Assembly: GCA_030529945.1 (NCBI GenBank) | Contig: JAUMVX010000025.1 | Coordinates: 1 to 34,240, forward strand | Direction: 5' to 3' | Length of the DNA: 34,240 bases | Source of the DNA: Bacteroidia bacterium | GTDB taxonomy: Bacteria; Bacteroidota; Bacteroidia; Bacteroidales; UBA932 | Part shown: one piece after another, positions 2,570-16,385 of the stretch | Position numbering within the stretch: the stretch's first letter is position 1 | Layout of the letters: the number at the start of each line of letters is the position of its first letter | Made by a program: the position numbers and the translations under genes | Notes under the pieces: model-generated | Database searches by the model: none | Told to the model about the DNA's origin: nothing | Seen by the model: only the letters and a program-made list of their open reading frames with translations

Positions 2570-4489
2570 TTATCGGGCACTGTCCAGCACTTCGGCGATG
2601 TCTTCGACAGGGCGGTCTGCGTAGCGGGCGAAGGTGGAGCGGCAGAGAGGGCAGGCGGTGACTATGCGGTCGGGGGAGCCGGCGCAGAGGTTCTCGAGGG
2701 AGGCCTTGGTGATAGGTTCCCTCTGGGCGAAAGAGAGGGTCAGCGAGCCCAGTGACCCGCCGCAGCAGATGCTCTTTCCCCGGGATTCGGCGGCTTCCAC
2801 CACCGTCCCTACGGATGAGAGGGCTTCGCGCGGCTGCTCATAGATGCCGCATCCGCGTCCCAGCTCGCAAGGGTCGTGGAACACCAGCCGCTCTCCGCTG
2901 TGGGATATCTTCAGTTTCCCGGCAGCGATAAGTTCCTGGAAATAAACGCTGTGATGAACCACCCTTATTCCCGTCAGCTTGTAATGCTCCGCGAAAATCC
3001 TGTAGCAGATAGGACAGGAAAGCAGGAGAGTGTCCGCCCCGGAAGCCAGAATAAGGGCGCGGTTCTTCTTTATGATTTCGCGGGCCTGATCATAACGTCC
3101 GGCCGTAAGGAGCGGCCGGCCGCAGCACAGTCCTCCTTCACGGTCCATAAACTCATAATTCACGCCCGCCTTCTTCAGAAGCGACTCTGTAGCCCGGCTA
3201 ATGGCGGGGGTGAGGGCCGTCATACAGCCCGCGAAATAAAGTACGCTCCCTCCGGTCGAGGCCTTCGTGGAAGCTGCGGTCGAGGAGTCCGAAGCGGCCT
3301 CGAGGACTGCTGCCCCCGTCGTGGCAGAGCGCAACGCAGCTGCCCCCGAAATCGCCCCCGCAGCCGCCCCCGCCGCCGCCGAAATCGACCCCACCGCCGT
3401 CACATTCTTATAATCAGGCACATAGGCATAATCGCGCATAGCCCTCTGGGCCATACGGAGAGCCGGCCCGTCCACGCCCACCTGACACAGCTCCGTACAC
3501 TTGCCGCAGAGCAGGCACTTGTCGCTTATCTCCTCGATGCGCTTCTCGTTGCCCCGGCGGATCTGCCGGTTCAGATACACCGTGGCATCCTTGATGTTCG
3601 CCTTCTTCACGTTCATCGGACACGCGTCGATGCAGACGCCGCAGTTCGGACAGGACCAGACCTGAGCCTTGGCGAAACCCCTCCTGGCGTGGATTATCTT
3701 CAGGCCCGCATTCCGCATCGGAATCAGCAGCATCTCCGTCGGGATATGCATATAGCGGGTGAACGGAAGCACCGTCATAAATATGCCCAGACAGATGGAA
3801 TAGGCCCACCAGGTCGGCAGCAGATGCATCGAGTCCCCCAGAAATCTCCCGAAAAGGTGATTCATCGGGACCGTCAGAAAGCTTCCGCCGCTGATGTCGG
3901 CAGTGAAGGCCTCGGCGAGAAGGCGCAGAGGAAATATCAGCCAGAGCGAGTACAGCCCGATGCGGTCCGGAAACGACGGTCTCGTGGTGCGCCTCATTCC
4001 GAAAATCTGCGAACGCACCCTCTTTATGATGGCCAGAGCGATACCGCTCAGCACCACCAGAAGGAAGAAGTCCATCAGGAAGAAGAAGATGGCCCCGCCC
4101 ACCGTGGCCTCGTTCTCGGAGACAAAATAGTTGAAGAAGATAGGGTAGTAGAAGAGCTTCATCCTGTGCGGCATATAGACCCAGCACTCGATATGTCCCA
4201 GCACTATCAGCATAAACCAGCCGAAGGCGATGCTCGAATGCATATAGCCCAGAACCTTGTTCCTCTTCCATAACTTTACGTGAATAAGACAGTTGAGAAA
4301 GATGTCGCGTACATTCTTCCAGATAGTCGCGGGAGTGATGAGCGACAGCAGGAACTGCCGTCTCTCCCTGCGCTCCAGCTGCAGATATATGTGCACGAGG
4401 CCGTAGAGGCAGTATCCGAGCACGAATACCATACCGAACATAAACGGCAGCACGAAAGGATGGAAGCCCGATGCGAAACGCTCTATCAT
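2570..4489 (-). CDS. Membrane HdrE-HdrD fusion (FadF/EMO-like quinone-linked Fe-S oxidoreductase)
   Basis: Predicted integral membrane electron carrier of 639 residues. About five transmembrane segments lie in residues 12-245. His84, His99, His222 and His248 sit at helix ends, like the heme b ligands of NarI/HdrE-type subunits. Two [4Fe-4S] motifs follow (Cys280/283/286/290 and Cys325/328/331/335). Next is an unusual Ala/Ser/Gly/Thr-rich linker (about 365-413). Two CCG (DUF224/HdrD) domains close the protein: Cys422, 455-456, 492/495 and Cys541, 575-576, 613/616. The same architecture occurs in FadF and in ETF:menaquinone oxidoreductase (EMO), and as separate DsrM/DsrK or HdrE/HdrD proteins. 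It is the last gene of the Hdr-like operon and its start overlaps the preceding stop by four bases, so it probably docks the soluble Hdr-like subunits to the menaquinone pool. The physiological donor and acceptor are inferred, not shown. Confidence 0.85.
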   Translation of the reverse strand: MIERFASGFHPFVLPFMFGMVFVLGYCLYGLVHIYLQLERRERRQFLLSLITPATIWKNVRDIFLNCLIHVKLWKRNKVLGYMHSSIAFGWFMLIVLGHIECWVYMPHRMKLFYYPIFFNYFVSENEATVGGAIFFFLMDFFLLVVLSGIALAIIKRVRSQIFGMRRTTRPSFPDRIGLYSLWLIFPLRLLAEAFTADISGGSFLTVPMNHLFGRFLGDSMHLLPTWWAYSICLGIFMTVLPFTRYMHIPTEMLLIPMRNAGLKIIHARRGFAKAQVWSCPNCGVCIDACPMNVKKANIKDATVYLNRQIRRGNEKRIEEISDKCLLCGKCTELCQVGVDGPALRMAQRAMRDYAYVPDYKNVTAVGSISAAAGAAAGAISGAAALRSATTGAAVLEAASDSSTAASTKASTGGSVLYFAGCMTALTPAISRATESLLKKAGVNYEFMDREGGLCCGRPLLTAGRYDQAREIIKKNRALILASGADTLLLSCPICYRIFAEHYKLTGIRVVHHSVYFQELIAAGKLKISHSGERLVFHDPCELGRGCGIYEQPREALSSVGTVVEAAESRGKSICCGGSLGSLTLSFAQREPITKASLENLCAGSPDRIVTACPLCRSTFARYADRPVEDIAEVLDSAR

Positions 4490-4824
4490 CTGGCAGCCTC
4501 CTTATCGTAAACCCTCCACAGGGAGAGTATCAGATGTCTGGTGTTTATCCCCCGCGGGCAGACCATCGTGCATTTCCCGCAGAGCATACAGCCCGAAACC
4601 ATCTTTCCGATTTCCGTCGCGCGCCCGCGCTGCAGGTCGTTTATGACCTTGCGGACGCTCATCCCCGTGAAAGGCCCCGCAGTGCAGGAAGCCGTGCAGC
4701 TTCCGCAGGCCATACAGATGTCCACGTCAGGCTCGAGAGCACGCACTTTACGCAGCAGGCTCAGGTCGGCCTTGTCCAGATTTATCGTGGACGAGGGTGA
4801 AAGAGAGAAACCGAAATCCATCAT
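4486..4824 (-). CDS. HdrC-like 4Fe-4S dicluster ferredoxin (small)
   Basis: A 112-residue soluble protein with two complete [4Fe-4S] motifs: Cys37/40/43/47 (CMACGSC) and Cys79/82/85/89 (CMLCGKC, ending CP). The spacing between the motifs and the helical segment joining them are typical of HdrC/QmoC N-terminal domains. It overlaps the HdrA-like gene upstream and the membrane fusion gene downstream by four bases each, a sign of translational coupling. It is the second HdrC-type protein of the operon and is probably the wire between the HdrA-like flavoprotein and the membrane HdrE-HdrD subunit. Two adjacent ATG codons make the exact start ambiguous by one residue. Confidence 0.85.
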   Translation of the reverse strand: MMDFGFSLSPSSTINLDKADLSLLRKVRALEPDVDICMACGSCTASCTAGPFTGMSVRKVINDLQRGRATEIGKMVSGCMLCGKCTMVCPRGINTRHLILSLWRVYDKEAAR

Positions 4825-5843
4825 AAACCGGAGGAACTTAAGTAGTTATGGATGGCCAGGGCGGCGGAGCGGGCCTCCGCCAACGTCTCCGGCACCGTCT
4901 TGGTCCCCGTGCAGGCTCCGGCGTAGAAGATGCCGCGCCGCTCGCTCTCTATGATGCCGTAGATATTGTCGCGGCTCTTCAGGAAGCCGTCGCTGTCCGT
5001 GCCGAGAGAAATCGTGGACGCGATCTGTCCCACCCCGGGATTGCTCACCATACCTGCCATAAGCACCAGCAGGTCGAGCGTAATCTTCACCGGCTTGCCC
5101 GAAAGCGTGTCCTCCGCTTTGACGCAGACGCAGCCGGAAATGTCCTCGCTGACCTCCGACACTCTTCCGCGCAGGAAATGGATGCCGTAATCCCTCTGGG
5201 CCCTGATATAGAAGTCCTCGTATTTTTTTCCGAAAAGACGCAGATCCATATAGAAACAGTAGATTTCCGCCTCCGGAAACTTCTCCTTGAGCTCGATCGC
5301 CTGCTTGATGGCAGTGATGCAGCATACTTTCGAACATTGGGCGTTGCCCGCCTTGACGTCCCGCGAACCCACGCAGTGCACGAATCCCACCTTGGACAGG
5401 TCGCGCCCGCCGATGCGCTCGTCCGGAGCACCGTTGAACCAATGTTCCAGGTCGCGGTTCGTGATGACCTGATTATAGATGCCGTAGCCGTACTCCTCCT
5501 TCTTGCGGGCGTCGAAAAGATGGAAGCCGGTCGCGAGCAGCACCGCCCGGCAGACCACGTTCACGCCGTTCGAGAGCATCACGCTGTAGCCGTCCTTGAG
5601 CTTGTTTATGAACGAAATCTCCGTGTCCAGGAAAATGTTCGCTCCGCCCAGACCCTCGCGTATCCCGTCCACGACTTCCGAGGCCGGAGTCATATCCGGG
5701 AAAAGCCTGTTCCACTGCGCGACGTGTCCGCCGAGCTGCGCCTCTTTCTCGACAAGAATCGGACAATAGCCCAGGGCAAGCAGCTGTTTCGCCGCCTCCA
5801 TCCCCGCGATGCCTCCACCGATTATCACAACATTCTCTTTCAT
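4821..5843 (-). CDS. HdrA/QmoA-like FAD-dependent oxidoreductase, minimal form
   Basis: A 340-residue flavoprotein. The N-terminus carries the FAD-binding VVIIGGGIAGMEAA signature (residues 5-18), followed by an HdrA-type acidic segment (VEKEAQLGGH). The hallmark HdrA cluster motif is present: CVGSRD at 157-162, then Cys170 and Cys174-175 (CSKVCC), expected to ligate a [4Fe-4S] cluster beside the flavin. A second nucleotide-binding region leads to YAGACTGTKTVPETLAEA near the C-terminus, as in thioredoxin-reductase folds. Methanogen HdrA is much longer, with an N-terminal ferredoxin domain and C-terminal ferredoxins; both are absent here, so it most resembles QmoA. It lies between the HdrB-like and small HdrC-like genes. 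In known Hdr complexes the HdrA flavin is the bifurcating centre; whether this reduced form bifurcates is unknown. Confidence 0.85.
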   Translation of the reverse strand: MKENVVIIGGGIAGMEAAKQLLALGYCPILVEKEAQLGGHVAQWNRLFPDMTPASEVVDGIREGLGGANIFLDTEISFINKLKDGYSVMLSNGVNVVCRAVLLATGFHLFDARKKEEYGYGIYNQVITNRDLEHWFNGAPDERIGGRDLSKVGFVHCVGSRDVKAGNAQCSKVCCITAIKQAIELKEKFPEAEIYCFYMDLRLFGKKYEDFYIRAQRDYGIHFLRGRVSEVSEDISGCVCVKAEDTLSGKPVKITLDLLVLMAGMVSNPGVGQIASTISLGTDSDGFLKSRDNIYGIIESERRGIFYAGACTGTKTVPETLAEARSAALAIHNYLSSSGL

Positions 5844-5861
5844 TCCTTTCCTATTTTTTCA

Positions 5862-5929
5862 GCGGCAGGCTCAGCCTGCCAATCCCGTGACTGCAATCCT
5901 TCCGCGGCAGGCGCAGCCTGCCAATCCCG
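5862..5929. repeat. Two copies of a 26-base inverted-repeat element
   Basis: Copies at 5862-5887 and 5904-5929 differ by a single base in the loop (T or G). Each contains GGCAGGC and GCCTGCC arms around a three-base loop, followed by AATCCCG. They fill the 107-base gap between the HdrB-like and HdrA-like genes, the only sizeable gap inside the operon. In the mRNA they would form two consecutive stable hairpins. They look like a REP-type element or an mRNA processing/stability element that separates expression of the two halves of the operon. Confidence 0.75.
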
Positions 5930-5950
5930 CATCCGCCGCAGCCCTTCCTC

Positions 5951-7021
5951 CTAACAGCACTTGAGCACCGTCGGCAGCCCCGGACGCATAATGTTCTTCC
6001 TGTCCACGCCCAGATATTTCGCCTTCGGGTCGTACTCGACGCCGATCTTGTCCAGCAGAGGCTCCACCGCCACCTGATGCAGCTGAAGGCCCAGATCCCA
6101 AGGGTCGTAGCCCAGCACGAGTCCGGCCAGCTCCTCGTAGGTGAGCACCGGAATCCCGTAGCCGTTGCTGCCGTAGGTCTTTCCGGTCTGCTCCGAAATC
6201 ACGTACTGCCACCTGTCCAGAAAATACGGACAGCCCGGACAGTTCGTCACTATCGCGTCCGGATGATACGGCTCCATAGACTCGAACTTTTTGTGCGTAT
6301 TGGATACGCAGTATCCGCGGTTCGCTTTGACGAAGTATTGGCGGAAGCCGAAGCCGCAGCAGTGCCGCCTCTCGGGATAGTCCACTACGCTTCCGCCCCA
6401 GGACTCGACCATTCCGGCGAGCACGTAAGGGTATTCCGCGCCGCCCACGCCCTTCGAAGGGAACATCTTCGAGTAGTGGCAGCCTATGTGCTCCACGATG
6501 CGCAGCGGCTCTCCGGTCTCGCGGTCCACGAGGCGGAACTTCGCCTTCTCGGCTATCTCGTTGCGGAATTTGTATATTAGGTCGCTGCTGTGCGCAAGAT
6601 ATTTCGGCTTGCGGAATTCCCTCCTGCAGGCCTTCCAGAGCATCTCGCGGATTTTCGTCTCCAGCTCGGGGAACTCCCTCCAGGTCTCGAGGATCTCCGT
6701 GTAGTTTCCGAAGGAAGTGATGCAGGACGGGCAGAGATTCTCGTAGCCGGACTCGGTCATAATGGCGAACTGTCTGGCCACCACGGTCATAGCCGTCTCC
6801 TGGGGGAGGGTGTCGCAGTGATAGGCGATGCCTCCGCAGGTCGTGTGGCTCGGATTCTCATAGATGTCCTTGCCCAGAACTCCGCGGGTAATCTCGGTGA
6901 ACATCTTCTCCGATGCCGGGAAGAAGTTCTGCCTGATGCAGCTGCGCACATAGTACCAGTGGTCGTCCGGTATCTCTTTCTGGTAATCGGCCCAGATTCT
7001 TTTCTTGCCTTGGTAGATCAT
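5951..7021 (-). CDS. HdrB-like CCG-domain protein
   Basis: A 356-residue protein with two CCG (DUF224) modules, the unit that binds non-cubane [4Fe-4S] clusters in the HdrB catalytic subunit. The C-terminal module is complete: Cys181, Cys221-222 (HCCGFGF) and Cys261/264 (CPGC). The N-terminal module has Cys28, Cys62 and Cys97/100, but its central motif is TCGG, so the first Cys of the usual CC pair is Thr61. In methanogen HdrB the paired clusters cleave the CoM-CoB heterodisulfide; here the substrate is unknown, since nothing suggests that the organism makes those cofactors. The start codon overlaps the HdrC-like stop by four bases. The protein ends in Cys-Cys. About 70 extra C-terminal residues after the last motif are not part of the classic CCG unit. 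Confidence 0.83.
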   Translation of the reverse strand: MIYQGKKRIWADYQKEIPDDHWYYVRSCIRQNFFPASEKMFTEITRGVLGKDIYENPSHTTCGGIAYHCDTLPQETAMTVVARQFAIMTESGYENLCPSCITSFGNYTEILETWREFPELETKIREMLWKACRREFRKPKYLAHSSDLIYKFRNEIAEKAKFRLVDRETGEPLRIVEHIGCHYSKMFPSKGVGGAEYPYVLAGMVESWGGSVVDYPERRHCCGFGFRQYFVKANRGYCVSNTHKKFESMEPYHPDAIVTNCPGCPYFLDRWQYVISEQTGKTYGSNGYGIPVLTYEELAGLVLGYDPWDLGLQLHQVAVEPLLDKIGVEYDPKAKYLGVDRKNIMRPGLPTVLKCC

Positions 7022-7722
7022 AGGTCCTCGCTGTTGAAATGTCCGGGCGTGCAGGTCTCGAAAACCTGCCGTTCATACTGTTCGATGGTCATACCCATCT
7101 CCTCCGCCTTCTTCTCGGAGAACCTGTCCACGGCCTCGATTCTCTCCGTACCGCCGGTCACGTCGAAAATGGCTTTCAGCTCGTCGAGCGCCTGCTGAGG
7201 AATCTTGCGCAGTATGCCGGGGCCCTCGCCCTGATAATTGCCCCCGTTGCGCTTTATGGAATCCTCCAGATGCTCGCAGTGCCACTTCCACACCGGACCC
7301 GATTCCGGGTGGTCCTCCCAGACGAAGGTCTTGGGATAGATGCAGTAGCCGTAGTTCAGCATATTGCCCGTGAGGGCTTTCGTGAGGGGATAGACCTGAC
7401 GGCCTTTCTCGCTGGCGGTGAACCAGCCCTTCTTTATGGACAGATTCCTCAGGGCCATAATCACCAGCCCCGGGCCGTTGCTTCTCGGACAGCGTGTCAC
7501 GCATGACATACATTCGCCGCAGTACCAGATGGTTTCGCTCTTCAGCAGAGCCTCTATCTCGGCATCGTCCTTGCGCTGGACCGTGTCCACGATCTTTCTC
7601 GGGTCATATTTGTAGAACTCCGCCGCAGGACAGATGGCCGTGCAGGTCCCGCAGTTTATGCAGGTCTTCAGGCCCTCCTTCAGGCGGTAGTCCTCACTGA
7701 GTTCATCGAACAGTCTGCCCAT
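7018..7722 (-). CDS. HdrC-like iron-sulfur protein
   Basis: A 234-residue protein with two N-terminal [4Fe-4S] motifs, Cys21/24/27/31 (CINCGTC, then CP) and Cys68/71/74/78 (CGECMSC, then CP). The C-terminal extension of about 150 residues carries no cysteines of its own cluster type. HdrC normally passes electrons between HdrA and HdrB, and this gene is translationally coupled to the HdrB-like gene by a four-base overlap (7018-7021). It is the first of the five Hdr-like genes and begins only eight bases after the stop codon of the HerA/DUF853 gene. The extension has a YCIYPKTFVWEDHPESGPVWKWHCEH-type central segment that I do not recognise from methanogen HdrC. Confidence 0.85.
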   Translation of the reverse strand: MGRLFDELSEDYRLKEGLKTCINCGTCTAICPAAEFYKYDPRKIVDTVQRKDDAEIEALLKSETIWYCGECMSCVTRCPRSNGPGLVIMALRNLSIKKGWFTASEKGRQVYPLTKALTGNMLNYGYCIYPKTFVWEDHPESGPVWKWHCEHLEDSIKRNGGNYQGEGPGILRKIPQQALDELKAIFDVTGGTERIEAVDRFSEKKAEEMGMTIEQYERQVFETCTPGHFNSEDL

Positions 7723-7730
7723 AATGGTCT

Positions 7731-9317
7731 TTATTTCAGAAGATTGCCCAGGATTGACCGCACGAGAGTGCGTGTCGCGGAGCTGGTCGCGGACTTGATT
7801 GCCCGGTTCGTGGCGCTCTTCGCGCTCGTGCGGCTTTTCGTGCCTGTCACCTTGTTCGCGACGGAGGTGCCCAGACTCGACGTGGCCGAGGTGATCGCCG
7901 CGCCCACGGCCGCGCCGATCAATGCTTTTCCGAGGCTCGTGCCTTTTCCGGCGTCCTTGCCCTTGGCGGCCTTTTCCGCCTCTTTCTGCGCCGCAAGCTC
8001 CTCCTCTTCCCTCTGACGCGCCTCCTCGGCCTCCTCGCTTTCCGCGAGCAGGACCTCGAACGCGCTCTCGCGGTCTATGGCCTTGTCATATTTGCCGTAT
8101 ATACGGCTCTGCTTTATGATTGTGTCGCGCCGCGACTCGCCGATCGCGCCTATCCGGCTGAGCGGGAACAGTATGCGGGCCCTTTCGACCATACTCGGGG
8201 AACCCTTTTCATCGAGGAACGATACCAGGGCCTCACCCGTGGCGAGTTCCATTATGGCGTCTTCTGTCCTGAAGGACGGATTCGCCCGGAAAGTCTCGGC
8301 GGCGCTCCGCACGGCTTTCTGGTCTTTCGGGGTGAATGCCCTCAGAGCGTGCTGGACGCGGTTTCCGAGCTGTCCGAGTATGCTGTCAGGAATGTCCGTA
8401 GGGTTCTGGGTCACGAAATAGACGCCTACTCCCTTGCTTCGGATGAGACGGACGACCTGTTCTATCTTGCTCACGAGGGCTTTCGAAGTGTCCTCGAAGA
8501 GAGTGTGGGCCTCATCGAAAAAGAACACGAGCTTCGGAAGATCCATATCTCCGACTTCCGGGAGGCTGGCATAGAGGTCGGAAAGCAGCCAGAGCAGGAA
8601 AGTCGAATAGAGTTTCGGGTTCAGCATCAGCTTGTCCGCCGCGAGGACGCTCATCACGCCCTTTCCCCCTTCCGTCTGCAGCAGGTCATAGATGTCGAAG
8701 GAGGGCTCGCCGAAGAATTTCTCGGCGCCCTGGTTCTCGAGCTCCAGAAGGGCTCTCTGGATGGCTCCCACGCTGACGGAGGAGACGGTCCCGTAACTTG
8801 CGGTGAGTTCCTTGGCGTGGTCGGCTATGTAGCTGAGCATAGCGCGGAGATCCTTCATATCCAGAAGCAGGAGGCCTCTGTCGTCGGCCACCTTGAAGAG
8901 GATGTTAAGGACCCCCGTCTGCGTCTCGTTCAGGCCGAGAAGTCTGGAGAGCAGCTGCGGGCCCATATCTGACACCGTGGCCCGCATCGGATGCCCCTGC
9001 TCGCCGAATACGTCATAGAAGCGCACCGGACAGGGGGCGAACTGCGGATTCCCGATACCGAATTCCGCGCAGCGCTTGCTGATGAAGCCGTTCATCGCTC
9101 CCGCTTCGCTTATGCCGCTGAGGTCTCCCTTCATATCGGCCATAAAGCACGGCACTCCCGCCTGGCAGAAAGTTTCTGCGAGGACCTGGAGGGTTACGGT
9201 TTTGCCGGTTCCCGTGGCTCCGGCGATAAGGCCGTGGCGATTCGCCATCCGGCCGCAGATGGAAATGGGACCTTCCGGCCCGTGGGCCACATACAGTCCG
9301 TGAGTGGAATCGAACAT
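7731..9317 (-). CDS. HerA-like ATPase (DUF853/YjgR family)
   Basis: A 528-residue P-loop NTPase of the HerA/FtsK superfamily. The Walker A motif is GATGTGKT (33-40), Walker B is LVFFFDEAH (263-271), and a conserved TQNP motif lies at 303-306. After the ATPase core comes a Glu/Ala/Lys-rich coiled coil (about 425-457), then a Gly/Ala/Ser/Thr-rich tail. This is the DUF853 layout of E. coli YjgR, whose physiological role is poorly known. I chose ATG 9317 over the TTG seven codons upstream (9338), because the -7 promoter element at 9343-9350 would place transcription start at about 9337 and leave the TTG without a leader. It is the promoter-proximal gene of the transcript that continues into the Hdr-like genes. 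A functional link to Hdr is not established. Confidence 0.9.
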
Positions 9318-9342
9318 AATCTTCGGTTTTAGTACCAAGCTA

Positions 9343-13053: not shown

Positions 13054-13163
13054 CTCATCCTGTGACGGCAAGAGTGTCGGAGTAAAACTGCCCAAGAGGG
13101 AATAATCCACAAGCGGCAAACCGAATAAAGCCGACCTTGTATGGAAAAGTCAGAAAAAAGTCT

Positions 13164-13171
13164 TAACTTCG
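13164..13171 (+). promoter_or_regulatory. Likely -7 element of the AAA/PD-(D/E)XK gene
   Basis: TAACTTCG differs from the TAnnTTTG consensus by one base. It would start transcription near 13178, downstream of the ATG at 13141 and 20 bases before the ATG at 13198. This supports the later start codon. Confidence 0.45.
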
Positions 13172-13197
13172 CATATTACGGAAATAAAGAGAACATT

Positions 13198-14742
13198 ATG
13201 CGTTATCCGATCGGAATACAGAATTTCGAGAAAATCCGCAGAGACGCTTATGTCTATGTGGACAAGACTGAACTTGTCTTCAGAATGGTAAGGCAAGGGG
13301 GCTACTTTTTTCTCAGCCGTCCCCGCCGTTTCGGGAAGAGCCTGTTCGTATCCACGCTGGAAGCCTATTTCAGCGGCAAGAAGGAACTCTTTGACGGTCT
13401 GGCCATCGCAAATCTGGAGAAAGACTGGACCCGGTATCCTGTGCTGCGGTTTGATCTGAGTGGAAAAGCATACAAAAAGAACTCCGATCTTTCTGAAACG
13501 CTGTATCAGCACCTCGATAAATACGAAGACTTATACGGTATTACCCCAAAGTATGAATCTCCCGAAGCACGTTTCAAAGATGTCATAGATGCAGCCTTTG
13601 ACCGTACAGGGCAGCCGGTCGTGATCCTTATCGACGAATATGATAAGCCGATAGTGGATTCTTTGGGCAATGATGAGCTTTCCGAATCATTCCGCAGTCT
13701 GTTGCAGGGCTTCTATAGTGTAATGAAGGCCAAAGATGCCTGCATAAAGTTCGGATTCCTTACAGGAGTAACCAAGATTGGCAAGCTCAGCGTTTTCTCC
13801 GGGCTCAACAATCTCAAGGACATATCGATGGATGCCCGCTATGCCGATATCTGCGGAATATCCGGGAAAGAGCTCAAGGATTATTTCGAGGAGAGCGTGA
13901 GTGAATTGGCCGAGGCCAATGACCTTTCTGTCGAGAAATGCTATGAGCAGCTGGCGGCAATGTACGACGGCTACCACTTCTGCGAGAATGCAGCGGGCGT
14001 TTACAATCCCTTCAGCCTGCTCAGCACCTTGGACAGCCTGAAATTCGGCACCTATTGGTTCTCGACGGGGACCCCGTCGTTCCTCATCCGTTTCCTCGAA
14101 GCCGGCAAGTACAAGCTTGAAAATGTGTCCGGCATCAAGGTGTCCCCGTTCCTCTTGTCCGGCGTGAACGCGAGCCGGCCCAATGCGATAACGCTCCTGT
14201 ATCAGACAGGATACTTGACAGTCAAAGATTTCGACAGATCCGCAAATCTCTATACCCTCGGTTATCCCAACAAGGAGGTGGAGGACAGCTTTATGGAGTC
14301 GCTGAGCGAGTTCTACACTCCCATTGAGAATAATCCGGACACATTGTCAGTTTACAGGTTCGTCGAAGACATACGCTCCGGCAACGTCGAAATGCTTATG
14401 CGTCGTTTCACGGCCTTCTTCGCAGATATGGACTATCAGATACAGGGCGATGCGGAGCTGTACTTCCAGAACACGATGTACGTGATGCTGAAGCTGATGG
14501 GCCAGCAGGTGCAGGTGGAAAGGCACACCTCGAACGGCCGCATCGATGTCCTTATCCAGACCGACAAATTTGTCTATATCATAGAACTCAAGCGCGACAG
14601 GGATCCGCAGGACGCCCTCGATCAGATTGACGAAAAGGGCTACGATTGGCCGTTCCTTGCGGACGGCCGCAAAGTCTTCAGGATCGGAGCGACCTTCTCC
14701 ACTGCGACCCGCCGTCTGGAGAACTGGGAAGTCCGCCAGTAA
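13198..14742 (+). CDS. AAA-ATPase-like / PD-(D/E)XK nuclease-like protein (DUF1703 type)
   Basis: A 514-residue protein. The N-terminal AAA-ATPase-like domain starts with the family signature MRYPIGIQNFEKIRRDAYVYVDKT. It has a P-loop variant RPRRFGKS (41-48) and Walker B VILIDEYDKP (142-151). The C-terminal domain looks like a PD-(D/E)XK nuclease fold: GRIDVLIQT with Asp, then YIIELK with the Glu-x-Lys pair. The family is abundant and multi-copy in Bacteroidota, and its role is unproven; defence or mobile-element links have been suggested. I chose ATG 13198 because homologues start at this MRYPIGIQNF and because the -7 element lies downstream of the earlier ATG at 13141. It is a single gene closed by a bidirectional terminator. 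The flanking genes do not suggest a mobile element. Confidence 0.88.
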   Translation: MRYPIGIQNFEKIRRDAYVYVDKTELVFRMVRQGGYFFLSRPRRFGKSLFVSTLEAYFSGKKELFDGLAIANLEKDWTRYPVLRFDLSGKAYKKNSDLSETLYQHLDKYEDLYGITPKYESPEARFKDVIDAAFDRTGQPVVILIDEYDKPIVDSLGNDELSESFRSLLQGFYSVMKAKDACIKFGFLTGVTKIGKLSVFSGLNNLKDISMDARYADICGISGKELKDYFEESVSELAEANDLSVEKCYEQLAAMYDGYHFCENAAGVYNPFSLLSTLDSLKFGTYWFSTGTPSFLIRFLEAGKYKLENVSGIKVSPFLLSGVNASRPNAITLLYQTGYLTVKDFDRSANLYTLGYPNKEVEDSFMESLSEFYTPIENNPDTLSVYRFVEDIRSGNVEMLMRRFTAFFADMDYQIQGDAELYFQNTMYVMLKLMGQQVQVERHTSNGRIDVLIQTDKFVYIIELKRDRDPQDALDQIDEKGYDWPFLADGRKVFRIGATFSTATRRLENWEVRQ

Positions 14743-14852: not shown

Positions 14853-16385
14853 TCAGAGATTCAGCGGATGAGATTTCAGATAGGCCTGCACGGCGGCGAT
14901 GTCCTTGTAGAACGGCGTGTCCTCAATGAAGACGGGCACGATGGCGCGGATGTCGGAGTAGATTCTGCGGGTCGCGGGGCTGAGTGAATCCGCTATGCCG
15001 AGACAGTCGACTGCCTGTGCCAGGGCGATGTACTGGATAGCCAGCACCTGCCATACGTTTTCGATGACCTGGGCGCAGAGCAGGGCGGTGTTCGTGCCCA
15101 TACTTACTATGTCCTGGTTGTCATTGTTGTTCGGGATGCTGTGCACGTAGTTCGGCATCGCGAGCGTCTGGCACTCGGCGGTAGTGGAGGTCGCCGTGAA
15201 CTGGCAGGCCTGCATACCGTAGTTCAGCCCGAGCTTCCCGAGATTCAGGAACGGAGGCAGAATGCCGTTTATGCGGTCGTGGAAGAGATAGTTCAGCTGT
15301 CTTTCGGCGGTCATCGCCACGCGTACCATTGCTATCTTCACCTTGTCCTCTTCGAGGGAGATGTAGTCGCCGTGGAAATTGCCCCCGTGATAGACGTTGC
15401 GGGTCTGCGGATCGACTATAGGGTTGTCGCAGGCCGAGTTCAGTTCCTCTTCCAGAACGCGGCGGGCGTTCCGGAGGGTCTCATATACGGGACCGAGAAT
15501 CTGCGGGGTGCACCTGAGCGAGTAGTAGGCCTGTACCTTGTGCTCGAAGACTTTGTCGGCGCTGTGGCCGTTGTCGTAGAGCTCGTGCTCCCTCTGCTGA
15601 AGGCATCCGCTGCCTTTCGAGAGCTCACGCATCCTCCCGGCTATGACCTGCTGCCCCTCGTGACGTCTTACTTCGTTAAGAGGCTGAGCCATAAGGTCGT
15701 CGAAGGAAGACGCTATCTCGTTCATCATAACGGAGGCCAGAGTAGCCCAGTCGAGAATCTGCTCCGCCTGGAACTGGTTTACGACCCCGATGCCGGTCAT
15801 AACCGACGTTCCGTTCGTGATGGAAAGACCCTCACGGATGTGTATCTCGAATGGTTTCAGACCGTTCTCCTCCATCACTTCCTTCGAGGCCTTCCATTCT
15901 CCCTTCCAGTGCACCTCACCCTCGCCGATGAGGGTCAAGGCTATATGCGCCAGCTGGACGAGGTCTCCGCTGGCCCCGACGCTTCCGTGGCGTGGGATGA
16001 ACGGGATGATGTCGCGGTTTATGAATTCCACGAGCAGTTTCACCACCTCGGGATGCACTCCGGAGCGGCACTGCAGGAAGGTGCCCAGACGGGCGATCAT
16101 CGCGCTCTTCGCGTCGATGTCCGGCAGAGGCTCTCCGGCTCCCGTGGAATGGCTGCGTATGATATTGTACTGGAGGTCTTTGAGGAAGGCGTCATCTACT
16201 CTCCACTGGGCCATCGGGCCGAAACCCGTGTTTATGCCGTAGATTACCTTGTCCGAGGCGAATTCCTTCAGGAATTCATAGCAGCTTTCGACTTCTGCCA
16301 TCGGGAGTTCTTCGAGGCGGATCTTCCTGCCTTCGAAAAGGACCTGGCGGACATATTCGAGAGTAAATGTGAAATGATTGTCCAT
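14853..16385 (-). CDS. HAL/PAL/TAL-family aromatic amino-acid ammonia-lyase (FjTAL-like)
   Basis: A 510-residue lyase that should remove ammonia from a histidine- or tyrosine-type substrate using the autocatalytic MIO cofactor. The MIO tripeptide Ala-Ser-Gly is at 138-140 (GSVGASGDLVQLAHIAL), and the catalytic Tyr is at about 49 (IYGINTGFGPMAQ). From memory, the segments NTGFGPMAQ, LQYN-IRSHS, PQILGP, NPI-D, YHGGNFHGDYISLE and HSIPNNNDNQDIVSMGTN closely match the Flavobacterium johnsoniae tyrosine ammonia-lyase linked to pigment synthesis, and match less well the HutH of Bacteroides. The Ser-His selectivity position (78-79) is shared by HAL and FjTAL, so substrate is unresolved. No hutU, hutI or ftcD lies nearby. 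It follows the 208-residue gene by 14 bases and is probably cotranscribed with it. Confidence 0.88.
   Translation of the reverse strand: MDNHFTFTLEYVRQVLFEGRKIRLEELPMAEVESCYEFLKEFASDKVIYGINTGFGPMAQWRVDDAFLKDLQYNIIRSHSTGAGEPLPDIDAKSAMIARLGTFLQCRSGVHPEVVKLLVEFINRDIIPFIPRHGSVGASGDLVQLAHIALTLIGEGEVHWKGEWKASKEVMEENGLKPFEIHIREGLSITNGTSVMTGIGVVNQFQAEQILDWATLASVMMNEIASSFDDLMAQPLNEVRRHEGQQVIAGRMRELSKGSGCLQQREHELYDNGHSADKVFEHKVQAYYSLRCTPQILGPVYETLRNARRVLEEELNSACDNPIVDPQTRNVYHGGNFHGDYISLEEDKVKIAMVRVAMTAERQLNYLFHDRINGILPPFLNLGKLGLNYGMQACQFTATSTTAECQTLAMPNYVHSIPNNNDNQDIVSMGTNTALLCAQVIENVWQVLAIQYIALAQAVDCLGIADSLSPATRRIYSDIRAIVPVFIEDTPFYKDIAAVQAYLKSHPLNL

Follow-up and report, generated by a model that had tools for sequence, protein, structure and literature searches.

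What is a heterodisulfide reductase (Hdr)-like gene cluster doing in a Bacteroidales bacterium that is not a methanogen? The question is raised by five adjacent minus-strand genes at positions 2570–7722 of a 34,240-nt stretch of DNA, hereafter the window (contig JAUMVX010000025.1 of assembly GCA_030529945.1; Bacteroidia bacterium, Bacteroidales, UBA932). The first-pass annotation had described them as Hdr-like genes with three four-base overlaps, which the open reading frames (ORFs) and domain matches confirm. It also saw no nearby gene that would name the partner; this is true of the window but not of relatives, where the cluster lies inside a sulfonolipid operon with genes for cysteate synthase and cysteate fatty acyltransferase (CFAT). 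We tentatively favor, at somewhat less than even confidence, a role as a membrane-anchored sHdr-related complex that would oxidize cytoplasmic sulfur to sulfite for sulfonolipids and pass the electrons to menaquinone.

The five genes, here called C1, B, A, C2, and DE after their products, are one conserved unit. In a sample of 198 genomes of the order, HdrB was found in 66 (E ≤ 1e-20), and DE (E ≤ 1e-60) was found in 65 of these 66 vs. 0 of the 132 HdrB-negative genomes (Fisher p = 4e-52, with phylogeny not corrected for). Comparison across genomes did not find the cluster consistently split: B and DE are on one contig in 61 of the 65 genomes. Both parts are kept where the genes are split, as in G120 (B-A and C1-C2-DE) and G001 (B-A and C2-DE). 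The order C1-B-A-C2-DE occurs in 85 of the 95 HdrB-bearing loci longer than 9 kb, to which this count was restricted. The ten exceptions are contig ends (L062, L088, L110), split reading frames (L068, L086, L126), one reordered cluster (L127, C1-C2-DE-B-A), paralogue pairs (L123, L124), and one split cluster (L129). These counts support the proposal of the first-pass annotation that a soluble Hdr module is combined with a membrane quinone-type arm in a non-methanogen. In a draw of 247 genomes of the phylum, HdrB (E ≤ 1e-20) was found in three, the window's own genome and two with sHdr-type proteins at 28–29% identity. No non-Hdr neighbor family occurred in more than three of the first twenty diverse loci.

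Neighboring genes were clustered across 80 named and 42 other loci, and the 40 largest families were examined. Out of 518 matches to the window, the 80 named loci rank highest, and the window HdrB is nearest to those of Candidatus Cryptobacteroides and other uncultured Bacteroidales (81–86% identity); the 80 form a single clade and so do not represent 80 independent events. DE is followed by the gene of a 428-aa protein that TIGR03844 identifies as cysteate synthase (442.6 bits vs. a cut-off of 324.9). Its gene is on the cluster's strand in 54 of the 80 named loci, and is the next ORF after DE, on the same strand, in 50 of the 65 loci in which DE is complete and another ORF follows; the gap in these 50 loci is −38 to +79 bases. 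A nine-gene set, VOC-CFAT-SDR-C1-B-A-C2-DE-cysteate synthase, lies on one strand with short gaps in 16 of the 80. DE is only 51–98% identical (median 61%) among these sixteen loci, so the gene order has outlasted much sequence change. The short-chain dehydrogenase/reductase (SDR) is, judged by its place only, a putative ketocapnine reductase.

The AONS-type neighbor is, by sequence comparison, a CFAT. Against the Protein Data Bank (PDB) it scored 549.7 bits with 7u7h, 534.7 with 28eh, which is titled ‘Cysteate-C-fatty acyltransferase’, and 236.7 with serine palmitoyltransferase; the AONS-type protein of locus L139 scored 633.8, 593, and 253.7 bits, respectively. Serine palmitoyltransferase was the best NCBIfam model for the neighbor, at a score under the cut-off, and this assignment was overruled by the PDB comparison. 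The title of 7u7h itself says AONS-like enzyme only; we read the entry as Alistipes finegoldii SulA because its Lys251 and Lys281 match, less a 20-residue offset, the positions described in PMC9304779. Both CFAT queries have Lys at these two positions.

CFAT also lies beside the cluster in three families other than the named clade. The loci concerned, each on one strand, are L139 (G141), with CFAT after DE; L128 (G041), with CFAT-PALP-C1-B-A-C2-DE-SDR-VOC; and L127 (G081), with CFAT-PALP-SDR-VOC-C1-C2-DE-B-A. A further locus, L166 (G120), has VOC-C1-C2-DE. The link to a sulfonolipid operon covers five families (f1, f2, f27, f41, and f81), f2 with the VOC gene only. The PALP protein is threonine-synthase-like (184 bits vs. 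303) and scored 120 bits with the cysteate synthase model (cut-off 324.9); that it might be a second cysteate synthase is a guess.

Two other genes recur in these neighborhoods. A glyoxalase/VOC protein of ~356 aa travels with the Hdr and sulfonolipid genes (L127, 13169–14239; L128, 14402–15460; L166, 7233–8303; and 20 named loci), and in L127 and L166 only 2 bases separate its gene from the HdrC1 gene downstream. An MscS-type channel gene accompanies cysteate synthase (L112, 3703–4626, and 28 named loci); a function as sulfonate exporter is conceivable.

The operon shared with cysteate synthase and CFAT was found in relatives and not in the window. The window is contig C70 of its own genome (G000; 2.28 Mb, 93 contigs, 95.7% complete), and cysteate synthase is present in that genome on contig C61. 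In genome G008 (L112), the cluster is flanked by RlmD on one side and by cysteate synthase and MscS on the other; on C61 (L172, 8448–13093), RlmD, cysteate synthase, and MscS are together and the five Hdr genes are not between them, nor is there a recognizable Hdr remnant between RlmD and cysteate synthase. Because the three flanking genes are still together without them, the five genes sit elsewhere as a set, and relocation of the set in this genome is the simplest reading.

Residue conservation was assessed in alignments of the window with 19 of the 80 named loci (18 for C1), which were every fourth of the 74 five-gene ones, and with 30–39 loci that carry a genome (G) handle; rows shorter than 70% of the query were left out, as were L001 and L002 (own genome) and L132 (no HdrB). 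Five-gene loci total 106, one of them a short search locus. HdrC1 (7018–7722, minus strand, as are all features of the cluster) is a 234-aa dicluster [4Fe-4S] protein by Pfam (Fer4 dicluster) and NCBIfam, and its eight cluster Cys are invariant in 56 of 56 rows. HdrB (5951–7021, 356 aa), with one CCG stretch (PF02754), is the best-conserved subunit (mean column identity 71% over 40 rows). Its C-terminal CCG motif, C181–C264 (6230–6481), is full, with five Cys in 59 of 59 rows, and is probably a noncubane [4Fe-4S] site. The N-terminal CCG (6713–6940) is degenerate in the alignment, with C28, C62, and C100 kept in 59 of 59 rows, T61 in 56, and S103 in 58; exactly one full CCG motif was found in all 40 HdrBs. 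HdrA (4821–5843, 340 aa) is, from Pfam, NCBIfam, and structure-database alignments, the FAD/thioredoxin-reductase-like core only, without the ferredoxin domains of methanogen HdrA. Residues 5–330 align with 6tjr, which we take to be the Hyphomicrobium HdrA-like subunit, and the core aligns with methanogen HdrA (5odc/9sfi). A Cx12Cx3CC motif (C157, C170, C174, and C175; 5319–5375), kept in 53 of 53 rows, is a probable [4Fe-4S] site. HdrC2 (4486–4824) is a 112-aa dicluster ferredoxin with eight Cys in 51 of 51 rows.

DE (2570–4489, 639 aa) joins a membrane HdrE/NarI-like domain, a dicluster Fe-S part, and an HdrD-like double CCG part. Five hydrophobic regions (3767–4477) precede the Fe-S part, and the weaker stretches 363–386 and 478–496 are also over the threshold; H70 and H84, within the hydrophobic regions, and H248, just behind them, are invariant in 50 of 50 rows. 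By analogy with EtfD (PMC13083937), the membrane part probably holds heme b and a quinone site. Two [4Fe-4S] motifs, C280–C290 and C325–C335 (3485–3652), are likewise kept in 50 of 50 rows. The CCG motifs, placed by alignment at C422–C495 (3005–3226) and C541–C616 (2642–2869), are kept in 50 of 50 alignment rows, and a pattern count found both full in 31 of 31 DE proteins. Unique to the window's DE among 50 rows is an Ala/Gly-rich insert of ~25 residues (377–401; 3287–3361), which follows the Fe-S part and precedes the first CCG domain.

Pfam placed Fer4 dicluster domains in C1, C2, and DE, and one CCG stretch in B and two in DE. In NCBIfam, Hdr models ranked first for C1, C2, A, and B, and LdhH and TfrB for DE; all matches shown for the five products were under the curated cut-off. 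The four-base overlaps are at C1/B, A/C2, and C2/DE, and the B-A gap is 107 bases. This gap contains two 30-base repeats (5858–5887 and 5900–5929; 93% identical), each with a GGCAGGC..GCCTGCC palindrome whose core pattern is found nowhere else in the window.

To which known system does this set belong? The set has subunit homology with methanogen HdrABC and HdrDE, but its layout is closer to that of sHdr (C1-B1-A-hyp-C2-B2) than to HdrABC plus HdrDE. The HdrA N-terminal and ferredoxin domains and the two CCG motifs in HdrB that characterize HdrABC were not found; the set differs from the HdrABC and HdrDE systems in its truncated, 340-aa HdrA core, in the single full CCG of B, in the fusion of HdrD with HdrE, and in having both modules in one cluster. 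HdrDE is marked by an HdrD with two CCG motifs and a heme-b HdrE; DE has this domain plan in fused form, with a predicted heme, and no HdrD or HdrE model was among its NCBIfam matches. QmoABC is marked by QmoB and by QmoC, an HdrC-HdrE fusion. C1 has a weak Fe-S overlap with qmoC (49.6 vs. 300 bits), and the membrane domain in the window is fused to HdrD; by these features, the set is not a Qmo complex. EtfD is described as having heme b, a putative quinone site, two cubane clusters, a linear [3Fe-4S] cluster, and a noncubane cluster, and the first CCG as degenerate in EtfD and lost in FadF and DgcB (PMC13083937). DE, which aligns with EtfD (9ojn_A), shares the five hydrophobic regions, conserved His, two [4Fe-4S] motifs, and two CCG domains of the EtfD/FadF/EMO group, but has both CCG motifs full, does not require electron transfer flavoprotein (ETF), and has four soluble Hdr partners.

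The sHdr systems come in type I, shdrC1B1AHC2B2, and type II, shdrC1B1AHB3 with etfAB (PMC11582611). The window cluster has their C1-B1-A core in the same order, their short HdrA (340–353 aa), and the degenerate N-terminal CCG of B, a pattern seen both in type II sHdrB1 and in the cyanobacterial B1 described below; it lacks hyp, B3, ETF, LbpA, and DsrE, and has neither hyp with C2-B2 nor B3 with etfAB. In the window, A overlaps C2, which is followed by DE. Two genomes of the same phylum do have type II sHdr-like loci, L161 (G202) and L162 (G284), with C1-B1-A-B3-EtfB-EtfA-EMO, a GCV_H-type LbpA, and DsrE; only L161 has an ORF (251 aa, unmatched in Pfam) at the place of hyp. The window proteins are 27% (B), 32–33% (A), 30–31% (C1), and 20–23% (DE) identical to those of these loci, in which B1, B3, and EMO have no full CCG by the pattern used, against one in window B and two in DE. 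Among named operons, the closest is that of plasmid NZ_CP016476.1 of Picosynechococcus sp. PCC 7003 (L154, 9242–14982), with the order C1-B1-A-C2-B2 and 48% (C1), 41% (B), and 43% (A) identity. Like the window set, it has a B with a degenerate N-terminal and a full C-terminal CCG, and a last subunit with two full CCGs; unlike DE, this B2 is HdrB-sized (290 aa) and has no membrane domain attached. The next gene encodes a flavoprotein with weak similarity to sulfide:quinone reductase (83 bits vs. a cut-off of 525). The window set is thus a membrane-fused relative of sHdr-type complexes; by the features compared, it is not a member of the sHdr-LbpA, EMO, Qmo, or HdrABC systems.

Some HdrC1 and HdrB genes occur apart from the full set. 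In the HdrB tree, the two-gene C1-B paralogues, six in number (L123, L124, L134, L135, L136, and L148), group together (85/77; bootstrap not settled) inside Bacteroidales HdrB, and long branches make the placement of cyanobacterial and sHdr proteins unsure. In one genome (L123 and L132; G026, contig C67), the HdrC1 and HdrB paralogues have a TonB receptor gene between them and are near YeeE, rhodanese, DsrE-like, FlpD, and HdrA genes. HdrC1-HdrB pairs without adjacent HdrA, C2, or DE (L124, L134, L135, L136, and L148) are near varying sets of FeMo-co-type, Mrp-type ATPase, OsmC, CGGC, DUF134, and Cys/Met PLP genes. The neighbors of these paralogues also point to sulfur.

The sulfonate of sulfonolipids enters via cysteate. 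In the archaeal-type cysteate synthase, sulfur enters as sulfite. Cysteate is made by sulfonating phosphoserine, as described in PMC10191378, and sHdr oxidizes sulfane sulfur to sulfite (PMC6067878, PMC12423496, PMC6335251). We infer that the complex makes sulfite, because cysteate synthase uses it and because sHdr, the nearest functional model, makes it. The five products would form a complex in which a cytoplasmic thiol, persulfide, or sulfane sulfur is oxidized at the CCG (noncubane) sites of HdrB, of the HdrD part of DE, or of both. Electrons would pass from HdrC1 to the FAD and [4Fe-4S] cluster of HdrA, and on through HdrC2 to the Fe-S clusters and heme b of DE, which would reduce menaquinone; fumarate reductase would reoxidize the menaquinone. 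Sulfite, or an equivalent oxidized sulfur, would go to cysteate synthase to give cysteate for sulfonolipids, replacing oxygen-dependent or sulfate-derived sulfite. A thiol/disulfide-type donor and a menaquinone acceptor, as proposed in the first-pass annotation, would still be the most economical reading. The sulfite/sulfide couple is at about −116 mV and menaquinone at about −74 mV, so a quinone would be a workable acceptor and NAD+ would not. The same role may apply in the window's own genome, with cysteate synthase encoded on a different contig. MenA and fumarate reductase cytochrome b were matched in that genome and MenD and Mqn were not found, as would be expected of a strain that finishes menaquinone from a scavenged precursor.

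Several results weigh against sulfite production for sulfonolipids. Of the 80 named loci, 26 are without any of the four sulfonolipid genes; 9 of these span the full 21 kb and the others are shorter. Only L112, L127, L128, and L139 of the 31 five-gene loci with a G handle have any of them. Archaeal-type cysteate synthase was found in 22 of 66 HdrB-positive vs. 29 of 132 HdrB-negative genomes (p = 0.09), a test that is weak both ways as it covers the archaeal type only and a second type, CapA, exists; environmental Bacteroidota use this different cysteate synthase (PMC10191378). YeeE sulfur import is rarer in HdrB-positive genomes (21 of 66 vs. 72 of 132, p = 0.003). Menaquinone synthesis shows no association, with MenD or Mqn in 49 of 66 vs. 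99 of 132 genomes: MenD alone is negatively associated (12 of 66 vs. 53 of 132) and Mqn alone positively (38 of 66 vs. 47 of 132). Both are missing from 17 of the 66 HdrB-positive genomes, the window's own included; among these 17, MenA was over the cut-off in 11 and the fumarate reductase cytochrome was matched in 9, and MenA was unmatched in G001, which has DE, and in G095. In the window's own genome, no LbpA candidate was found beyond the glycine-cleavage GcvH, the single GCV_H protein, whose gene lies between gcvT and gcvP. Strains from the Black Sea are reported to have shown no oxidation of sulfide in culture (PMC11129491). Labilibaculum euxinus gives slight support in the other direction: capnine lipids reach 24–33% by peak area in strain A4 (PMC12927429), and strain SYP is named in a broad multi-phylum list of strains credited with some Hdr system (PMC11129491). 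A search for a partner by phylogenetic profile, covering ETF, menaquinone synthesis by either route, and YeeE, gave no positive partner.

The alternative that survives best, although we consider it unlikely, is a general thiol/disulfide:menaquinone oxidoreductase like HdrDE, in which DE oxidizes a dithiol or reduces a disulfide, no sulfite is made, and the operon reflects one regulatory context. Two full CCG motifs are the arrangement of disulfide-cleaving HdrB and HdrD, and DE has both in every row; the missing LbpA candidate and the weak genome-wide link to cysteate synthase also fit. Such an enzyme would explain neither the tight operon with cysteate synthase and CFAT nor the finding that conservation is highest in HdrB, which carries the sHdrB1-like degenerate site.

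A further alternative is the reverse direction, with menaquinol or HdrA-borne electrons reducing sulfane sulfur or sulfite in detoxification or sulfur respiration. Hdr-type enzymes are reversible, and the paralogues lie beside thiol and sulfur genes. However, to consume sulfite beside a biosynthetic gene that uses it would be futile, and no sulfite reductase domain was found in the five products by Pfam or NCBIfam; we regard this reading as improbable. More doubtful still is a flavin-bifurcating HdrABC variant that passes electrons from a soluble donor to ferredoxin and quinone. The HdrA core has FAD and Cx12Cx3CC, and HdrC2 could stand in for the missing ferredoxin domains, but HdrA lacks the extra domains of bifurcating HdrA and FlpD occurs only with the L123 paralogue. 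In the 40 largest neighbor families, most members of which were not profile-scanned, no MvhD, hydrogenase, or formate dehydrogenase was recognized. Least credible is the ETF link raised in the first-pass annotation, an ETF:menaquinone oxidoreductase (EMO; FadF/EtfD-like) serving β-oxidation: DE has the EtfD domain plan (PMC13083937), but it keeps the first CCG that is missing in FadF, in DgcB, and in the EMO of the two type II sHdr loci, to which it has the low identity given above, and, at E ≤ 1e-12, no ETF-alpha was found in five of the 66 HdrB-positive genomes (the window's own, G000, and G029, G129, G154, and G178), and ETF shows no overall association (61 of 66 vs. 117 of 132).

The window's own flanks were likewise searched for a partner. 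Six flanking genes, among them GH3, HerA-like ATPase, porin, and ABC permease genes, were tested and rejected, being almost never near the cluster in relatives: a GH3-like gene is near it in 1 of the 80 named loci, and one lyase-like gene in L151. The HerA-like ATPase gene (7731–9338) is on the cluster's strand and ends 8 bases upstream of HdrC1; no relative of it (E ≤ 1e-20, half length) was found in the named or distant loci. Farther along are a predicted AAA-ATPase with a PD-(D/E)XK domain (13141–14742) and an aromatic amino acid lyase family gene (14853–16385).

A literature search of limited scope, which is not proof of absence, found no paper that names the five-subunit complex or ties Hdr to sulfonolipids. 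The available parts of the sulfonolipid papers PMC9304779, PMC11211663, and PMC10191378 mention no Hdr complex, and ‘heterodisulfide’ has no occurrence in PMC9304779. The word ‘sulfite’ is not in the main texts of PMC9304779 and PMC11211663, and the available parts of the papers do not name the sulfite source of a strict anaerobe. Sulfonolipids of Alistipes, Odoribacter, and relatives have been studied as gut metabolites with health links.

The tie to sulfonolipids gives a testable job to an orphan redox complex of five subunits, which 65 of the 198 sampled genomes of the order (about a third) carry, and the sulfonolipid pathway gains a candidate sulfur source. Somewhat more tentatively than the favored reading itself, we suggest that the complex may be a dedicated biosynthetic sulfite generator, which would use menaquinone to oxidize reduced sulfur to sulfite, need neither oxygen nor a lipoyl carrier, and in this way allow sulfonolipid synthesis in the anoxic gut. 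Hdr-type sulfur chemistry would thereby extend from energy metabolism to lipid biosynthesis. If true, sHdr-type chemistry would here have its first assimilatory use, and the pathway its missing sulfite source.

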